Positions 18,940 through 19,733 of a stretch of 20,672 nt of DNA are shown here, piece by piece; the stretch's first letter is position 1, and each line of letters starts with the position of its first letter. The DNA lies in assembly GCA_022564455.1 (NCBI GenBank), contig JADFLK010000003.1, forward strand, positions 1-20,672, written 5' to 3'. The notes below the pieces were generated by a model that had not been told where the DNA came from, made no database searches, and saw nothing but the letters and a program-made list of their open reading frames with translations. The translations under genes were made by a program, and so were the position numbers. The stretch comes from Bacteroidota bacterium (GTDB taxonomy: Bacteria > Bacteroidota > Rhodothermia > Rhodothermales > Rubricoccaceae).

Positions 18940-19733
18940 AGCACACCTCTTTCGCGGTACGCGGCCAATCTCTTCACGGGATCGGCTGCATCCAAGAGAT
19001 CGGAGAGGACAGCTACGCCGAATGCGCCTGCGTCGAGGCACGCTTCGGTGCGCTCCGGTGTGATGCCGCCGAGGGCGAATAAGGATAAATCCGATACCGA
19101 GGCGCACACTTTCATAAGTGCGTCAATTCCCACTGCGGACGTCTCAGGGTGTGTTTGTGTTGGGAAGATCGGCGAGAAGGTTGCGAAATCGAAATCGTTG
19201 GTAGCGGCGTGTTGAATGTCTTCGAAAGAGTGGGCGGAAAAGCCGAGCGGCCGGCTTCTTCCCCCGGATGCCTCAATAACATTTTGCAACAACACCCCTC
19301 CCCCACGCTCTGCTCGGGTATTTCCCTGGCGGGGAGACTCTACAGTCTCCCTTTCAAGGGGGTGTCCCGCCACATGGCGCGACGAGGGATGTCGGAATGG
19401 TGAGGAGCTATGCAACCTGGCCGTTGCGGAAACTGGCTTCACGATTTTTCTACCAAGGTGAAGACCACTGTGTAGTTCGTCGGCCACGTCGACTCTAGAG
19501 TTGACCGAGACGATAAGCTCAGAACGGATAGAGCGAATGTGCTCCACCAATTCTCTGGCTGTTGTTCTGAACAACTCATCTGACGCCGCGTGATCGCGGA
19601 GTTGCACGAACGATAAGCCAGCTTCCACAAGCGCGACAACCTGACGCTGGACATCGCCAGCTGTTTGTTGGACTCGCCCCGACGCAAAACCATCGGCTAT
19701 CAACATCAACCGGGGCAGTGAGAGTGTTCTCAC
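18936..19733 (-). CDS. ThiE/TenI superfamily protein with an in-frame insertion
   Basis: The 265-residue protein is about 40 residues longer than usual. Recognisable blocks are the start LPRLMLIAD, SFVQLRD near 41-47, VNSRVDVA near 77-84, LHLGRK near 91-96, LGFSAHSFEDIQ, FSPIFPTQTH, and FALGGITPER with the C-terminal phosphate site AGAFGVAVLSDLL. ThiE couples HMP-PP with thiazole phosphate; the related TenI aromatises the thiazole. Here the ThiE Mg-binding Asp of NDR is Ser (NSR) and the usual Lys in TxTK is His, so TenI-like or altered activity is quite possible. Residues about 107-148 (Arg/Pro/Ser-rich) come from an inserted DNA element; without them the protein would be 223 residues. The GTG start at 19733 overlaps the thiG stop (GTGA). 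No frameshift is seen. Confidence 0.85.
   Translation of the reverse strand: MRTLSLPRLMLIADGFASGRVQQTAGDVQRQVVALVEAGLSFVQLRDHAASDELFRTTARELVEHIRSIRSELIVSVNSRVDVADELHSGLHLGRKIVKPVSATARLHSSSPFRHPSSRHVAGHPLERETVESPRQGNTRAERGGGVLLQNVIEASGGRSRPLGFSAHSFEDIQHAATNDFDFATFSPIFPTQTHPETSAVGIDALMKVCASVSDLSLFALGGITPERTEACLDAGAFGVAVLSDLLDAADPVKRLAAYRERGVL
19285..19416 (-). mobile_element. Small palindromic element inserted in frame inside thiE/tenI
   Basis: A perfect direct repeat TGCAAC lies at 19285-19290 and 19411-19416, bounding 120 bp. Insert plus one repeat copy is 126 bp (42 codons), which keeps the frame; deleting it restores a normal-length ThiE/TenI. The insert holds a perfect hairpin GGGAGACT-CTAC-AGTCTCCC (19332-19351) and further short inverted repeats (ACACCCC with GGGGTGT; TGGCG with CGCCA). 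It has no in-frame stop on the coding strand. Features resemble palindromic or MITE-type elements. No second copy is present in this window. Confidence 0.7.

Follow-up and report, generated by a model that had tools for sequence, protein, structure and literature searches.

A dispersed palindromic repeat lies in frame within a tenI-like enzyme gene of a Rubricoccaceae-like Bacteroidota genus

Introduction

How can an enzyme gene stay open across a stretch of DNA that looks like a mobile palindromic repeat? The question is raised by a ThiE/TenI-like gene in a 20,672-nucleotide stretch of a Bacteroidota genome (contig JADFLK010000003.1; this whole stretch is hereafter called the window), in which the initial annotation had proposed such an insert. 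Rickettsia, which are intracellular bacteria, provide the best-known examples of selfish palindromes in frame. An environmental Bacteroidota case, with two host enzymes and with homologues that carry or lack the insert, suggests that intracellular life is not required for the effect. These insert-bearing and insert-free homologues are natural pairs in which to test whether mobile DNA supplies usable protein loops.

The Rickettsia palindromic elements (RPE) were described by Ogata et al. (2000, 2002), with a study of gmk by Abergel et al. (2006), all cited here through passages of two reviews (PMC2229807, PMC10969869). In those passages the elements are 105-146 bp long and lie in frame in 19 genes, one RPE-bearing enzyme stayed active with a changed affinity, and in-frame fusions with genes also occur for ERIC and the Yersinia (YPAL) repeats (PMC2229807). 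The frequency seen in Rickettsia is called unusual in a passage of the 2024 review (PMC10969869), from the text of which the string "bacteroid" is absent. The open-licence literature yielded no relevant report on in-frame palindromic inserts in Bacteroidetes or on repeats in Rubricoccaceae, which is weak evidence of novelty.

The first proposal, that a palindromic repeat of mobile type interrupts an enzyme gene in frame, is confirmed here with corrections. We consider it likely that a non-autonomous, hairpin-rich repeat has spread through the genus and is tolerated in frame in enzymes as a disordered peptide loop. Under this hypothesis a MITE- or REP-like repeat of ~115 bp, composed of two near-mirror halves (A and B), would have become distributed over the genomes of a single Rubricoccaceae-like genus, mainly in intergenic DNA, moving by transposition helped in trans; in-frame copies would survive thanks to the absence of stops in several of the repeat's frames, to an inserted length that preserves the frame, and to a peptide that loops out of the fold in a disordered state. 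The tenI-like protein would still be made and active.

Results and Discussion

The host gene

The gene occupies positions 18936..19733 on the minus strand and encodes 265 aa, with the element in frame at approximately residues 112-149. Its reading as thiE/tenI-like is borne out by a Pfam TMP-TENI match (2.4e-30) and by a fold comparison in which the nearest folds to its model are ThiE and TenI structures, including the TenI entries 3qh2 and 1yad; the protein lies below both NCBIfam equivalog cut-offs (thiE, TIGR00693: 89.5 bits, cut-off 145.1; TenI, NF005819: 66.9 bits, cut-off 251). It is flanked on the same strand by thiG (19730..20635; Pfam ThiG 5.1e-105) and by a thiD-like kinase gene (18109..18939; Pfam Phos_pyr_kin 1.6e-99), whose longer frame, 18109-19107, is above the NCBIfam HMP-P_kinase cut-off. 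A public protein (P0002), a record with 16 member sequences, is 99% identical to the window's and of equal length. Over the flanking codons (n=195), comparison of the tenI-like genes of the window and of the nearest genome (G001, a Bacteroidota MAG) gives dN of 0.24-0.25, dS of 0.90-1.02 and dN/dS of ~0.24-0.27. The host gene is under purifying selection, as a long-term average that does not date from after the insertion.

Anatomy of the element

As annotated, the direct repeat TGCAAC is present at 19285..19290 and 19411..19416, 126 bp separate the two starts (19285-19410), and the minus-strand frame 19733-18936 runs through the insert without a stop. Within these bounds lies a dispersed, hairpin-rich element of ~115 bp on the plus strand (19288..19400, ends approximate), delimited by BLAST matches in G001 and its congener G002 and by a pattern listing of the two halves. 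Half A (19288..19339; CAACAACACCCCTCC ... GGGGAGACT) is found in other copies as well, and half B (19344..19400; AGTCTCCCTTTCAAGGGGGTG - hairpin 2 - GGGATGTCGGAATGG) matches a covariance model, R1, at 65.1 bits (E 1.9e-17, the window copy being itself in the model). The perfect 8-bp hairpin reported earlier, GGGAGACT-CTAC-AGTCTCCC, was recovered by sequence and fold at 19332..19351 (plus strand), at the joint of the halves.

Copies in general have a half A of the form GCAACACCCCTCC - hairpin - GGGGAGACT and a half B of the form AGTCCCCCTTTCAAGGGGGTG - hairpin 2 - GGGGGATGTCGGATTGG, and the pattern listing shows them arranged as A-B, as B-linker-A, in tandem, or as single halves. Hairpin 2 (in the window at 19364..19383, plus strand; GTC.CGCC / GGCG.GAC) differs in stem sequence among copies and keeps its pairing: in 15 of 18 copies its fold is better than that of letter shuffles at p <=0.05 (p 0.015 for the window copy; weakest p 0.22). 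The combined p over the 18 copies, ~2e-21, is overstated because the copies are related. In the window the fold is unusual as minus-strand RNA (z -3.4), as opposed to plus-strand DNA (z -0.95, not unusual), and in the RNA fold the A-end CAACACCCC can pair with the B-end GGGATGTCG, ends that differ between copies.

Dispersal of the element

A BLAST search with the 132-bp insert against 40 genomes gave 16 matches in G001, two in G002 and none in the remaining 38. A covariance model built from half B only (18 copies) found 32 matches in G001 and eight in G002, and among 28 other relatives 25 gave no match and the remaining three gave one or two weak ones (E 5.6e-5 to 0.005). A pattern scan of a species-genome collection returned eight stretches, of which six belong to the G001 record, one to that of G002, and one to a MAG labelled Armatimonadetes. 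The contig bearing the last (L059, JADFGT010000126.1), which can be aligned to G002 at 70-81% and has the repeats of this genus, is probably mis-binned. The element had no match in 72,556 plasmid records, nor its exact 18-base tail pattern in viral contigs.

The absence of other copies, set beforehand as a refutation, did not occur, because copies exist in the nearest genome and in the congener. The element is short, non-autonomous and multi-copy, as MITEs are. That the insert is instead an old lineage-specific loop that never was mobile DNA is barely credible: four tenI-like homologues (P0006, P0008-P0010) do have loops of 29-30 residues that do not match the element, but both G001 and G002 have further copies of the insert's DNA, and intergenic copies match its peptide, so that the dispersed copies refute an immobile old loop as the source of the window's insert.

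The loop of the tenI-like protein

The initial annotation saw extra residues between the LHLG and LGFSAHS blocks, and this holds: the loop from LHLG to GFSAHS has 69 residues in the window's protein, where 111 of the 120 homologues listed (of 174) have 12-24, and by that comparison it somewhat exceeds the length that the element alone would account for. The other nine listed have long loops: 69 residues in P0002 and P0003, 60 in P0004, 129 in P0005, 40 in P0007 (from G001), and 29-30 in P0006, P0008, P0009 and P0010. Against translated intergenic copies, the insert peptides of P0001, P0004 and P0005 score 37-46 bits (shuffle maxima 24-31, 40 shuffles each), and that of P0003 is barely above its shuffles (27.8 against 26.9 bits).

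Orthologues sharing the extra residues had been named as a sign of an old loop. P0002-P0004 do share the insert, which is therefore not very recent; yet its DNA is dispersed in G001 and G002, so this is not an immobile old loop. P0001, P0003 and P0004 group together with support (95/94), and P0005 stands elsewhere in the tree; with P0005 included, the insert needs two changes, and 0% of bootstrap trees have one origin. P0005 may thus have arisen by recombination or in an event of its own. In P0005 (327 aa) the GYSAH block is duplicated and the element lies between the two blocks, which might reflect recombination of two versions that both bore an insert, or a mis-assembly.

In the G001 orthologue this loop is occupied, in frame, by another dispersed repeat (L050:2825-2925, locus C81, minus strand; GGGCAACGCA..GCGTTGC core). 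This repeat occupies eight places in G001 at E <=0.1, itself included (four at E <=1e-4), and none in G002; as a peptide its match falls within the shuffle range. Different repeats in the tenI loop of different species are thus an addition to the first proposal, as is the second enzyme described below.

An AlphaFold2 model on alignment A1 (17 sequences; mean pLDDT 80.1) shows an otherwise confident barrel in which residues 98-147 are the only segment with pLDDT <50, lying between strand 4 (90-93) and a helix (146-155). The insert is thus modelled as a disordered surface loop, as anticipated, though not a remote one: it falls in the beta4-alpha4 loop, which by general TIM-barrel layout we take to be on the active-site side. 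In an alignment with the ThiE structure 1g4t, HIGQE corresponds to HLGRK in the window's protein and VND to VNS, in a weakly scoring part of that alignment, and the HIGQE and VND residues of 1g4t presumably have a metal role. The metal-binding motif that this loop carries in true ThiE seems to have been lost in the window's clade, which might help to explain why the loop tolerates the insert.

These features could also belong to a decaying copy, in which the repeat hit a dispensable paralogue whose frame is open by chance or not yet lost, a separate canonical ThiE perhaps doing the work. G001 has a second ThiE-like match (C116, 38% identity), the clade is below both NCBIfam cut-offs, and the inserts change greatly between homologues. 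We nevertheless regard decay as improbable, given the dN/dS of the flanks, the number of member sequences in P0002, the retention of the gene beside thiG and thiD, and a frame that is kept in P0001-P0005 although the insert length changes.

Gene context and a second enzyme

By a rough codon-score gene finder, which split the window's own tenI at the element, 34 of the 37 listed places in G001 and G002 are intergenic; the coding share of the G001 sample is 85%, the contigs having been picked for holding copies and some places neighbouring each other. The other three are C90, inside a gene; C86, inside a gene at its 5' edge; and C162, overlapping a gene start. The copy in the NIF3 gene of G001 (C86) sits ahead of the NIF3 match, which starts at residue 31, and is not counted as an in-gene case.

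A frame with at least 30 aa on both sides is open through the element at 23 of 38 places. Of nine longer such frames compared with Pfam, eight were without a match and the TPR matches of the ninth lie downstream of the element; none of the nine thus has a domain split by it. In six copies, three to five of the six frames are open, above the shuffled mean at a level that 20-76 of 300 shuffles equal, none being significant. A search for more in-frame proteins by exact 5-residue peptide words gave two candidates, of which only P0002 held.

The C90 copy lies in frame within a 562-aa CrtI/CrtO-like FAD oxidoreductase of G001, read in the direction opposite to that in tenI, and two enzymes thus hold the element in frame, both in A-B order. 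At the insert point G001 has 37 residues; among the 120 homologues listed (of 2874 found), 114 have four, P0124 and P0138 have 48 and 54, and P0122, P0123, P0125 and P0127 have none. The inserts of G001, P0124 and P0138 match translated intergenic copies at 45-52 bits (shuffle maxima 23-27, 40 shuffles each). The four empty homologues, compared like all P-numbered sequences as proteins and not as DNA, are the closest insert-free relatives of G001 among those listed (alignment identity 82-88%; P0125 and P0127, of 471 and 389 aa, are shorter), and with the three filled ones they form a supported clade (97/93). Because they are without even the four residues common to the 114 others, their empty sites may reflect loss of the element and not a site never filled. 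The best tree has two changes, and a single origin, found in 10% of 200 bootstrap trees, is a less favoured but still plausible history. The model of this enzyme (mean pLDDT 39) is unusable.

Ends and mobility

The initial annotation took TGCAAC for the 6-bp target duplication of a transposed element. Dispersed copies were indeed found, but the duplication is not significant, since 56 of 500 shuffles give at least 6 bp. In the three copies tested, the 6, 4 and 7 bp shared at the ends are matched by 56, 461 and 54 of 500 shuffles, none of the three being significant; the ends of other copies partly resemble the TGCAAC direct repeat. No transposase partner was identified: for Y1_Tnp (PF01797; cut-off 23 bits) G001 has one weak match at that level (23.0) and a second below it (21.1), and G002 has none, each MAG being ~88% complete.

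The palindromes could also be mosaics spread by recombination, through template switching and unequal exchange, with loops growing in the same way. Halves A and B and the linker do occur singly, in varied orders and in tandem, the match of the FAD homologue P0138, 56 aligned columns long, is to an intergenic stretch that is composite, and no significant target duplication is seen; P0005, apart from P0001, P0003 and P0004 in the tree, has its duplicated GYSAH block around the element. The many scattered single copies would still require some insertion step, however, and A-B copies stand at unrelated places (tenI, the FAD gene, C204 of G002). We hold recombination in place of transposition to be rather unlikely, and continue to prefer a repeat that moves by transposition.

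Possible recurrent insertion and comparison with known repeats

A broader proposal is that, in a process like that of RPE, several repeat families repeatedly land in the same permissive enzyme loops: the tenI loop would have received the present element in the window's lineage and the other repeat in G001, and the FAD site would have undergone insertion and then in-frame loss. We put this forward tentatively, at somewhat less than even chances; if true, mobile palindromes would time and again both supply protein loops and remove them.

The likeness to RPE that the initial annotation drew stands at the level of behaviour: in both, short palindromic DNA (~115 bp here, within the RPE range given above) is dispersed between genes and in frame within conserved genes, here those of the tenI-like protein and the FAD oxidoreductase. 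The present element is probably a separate family and its phylum is different, the hosts being Rubricoccaceae-like Bacteroidota MAGs, and none of the eight pattern-scan stretches is labelled Rickettsia. Unlike RPE, the present element has modular halves and a hypervariable hairpin, one element is read in opposite directions in two enzymes, and it is rarely genic, with one clear case in the 37 listed places of G001 and G002, whereas in R. conorii, according to a passage of PMC10969869, ORFs contain almost half of the RPEs. With REP/BIME, as treated in passages of PMC2817692 and PMC3733652, it shares mosaics of palindromic units in alternating order and an intergenic location; its units are larger and also lie inside genes, a GTAG/CGTC tag is not established, and there is no clear RAYT transposase. 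ERIC and YPAL, in the passage of PMC2229807, are likewise structured, ~100-200 bp long and occasionally fused in frame with genes, but are enterobacterial, and no clear terminal inverted repeat with target duplication emerged for the present element.

Other repeats

A third, larger repeat of ~165 bp (L059:1490-1670) is near-palindromic and MITE-like, with ends like GTCGGACTTAG/CTAAGTCCGAC. The region has 56 listed BLAST matches in G001, some being the two strands of one place, and the repeat occupies 13 places in the G001 pieces scanned, none within a called gene. In the window, an Rfam scan matched only three tRNAs; three tRNA-Arg genes (anticodons acg, tcg, acg) stand in a row at a regular 228-bp spacing (17498-18028). 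Two tandem arrays are also present, one with 2.8 copies of a 40-bp unit (11157-11285) and one with 7.6 copies of a 7-bp TCCGTCC unit at the start of the thiG frame (20585-20637).
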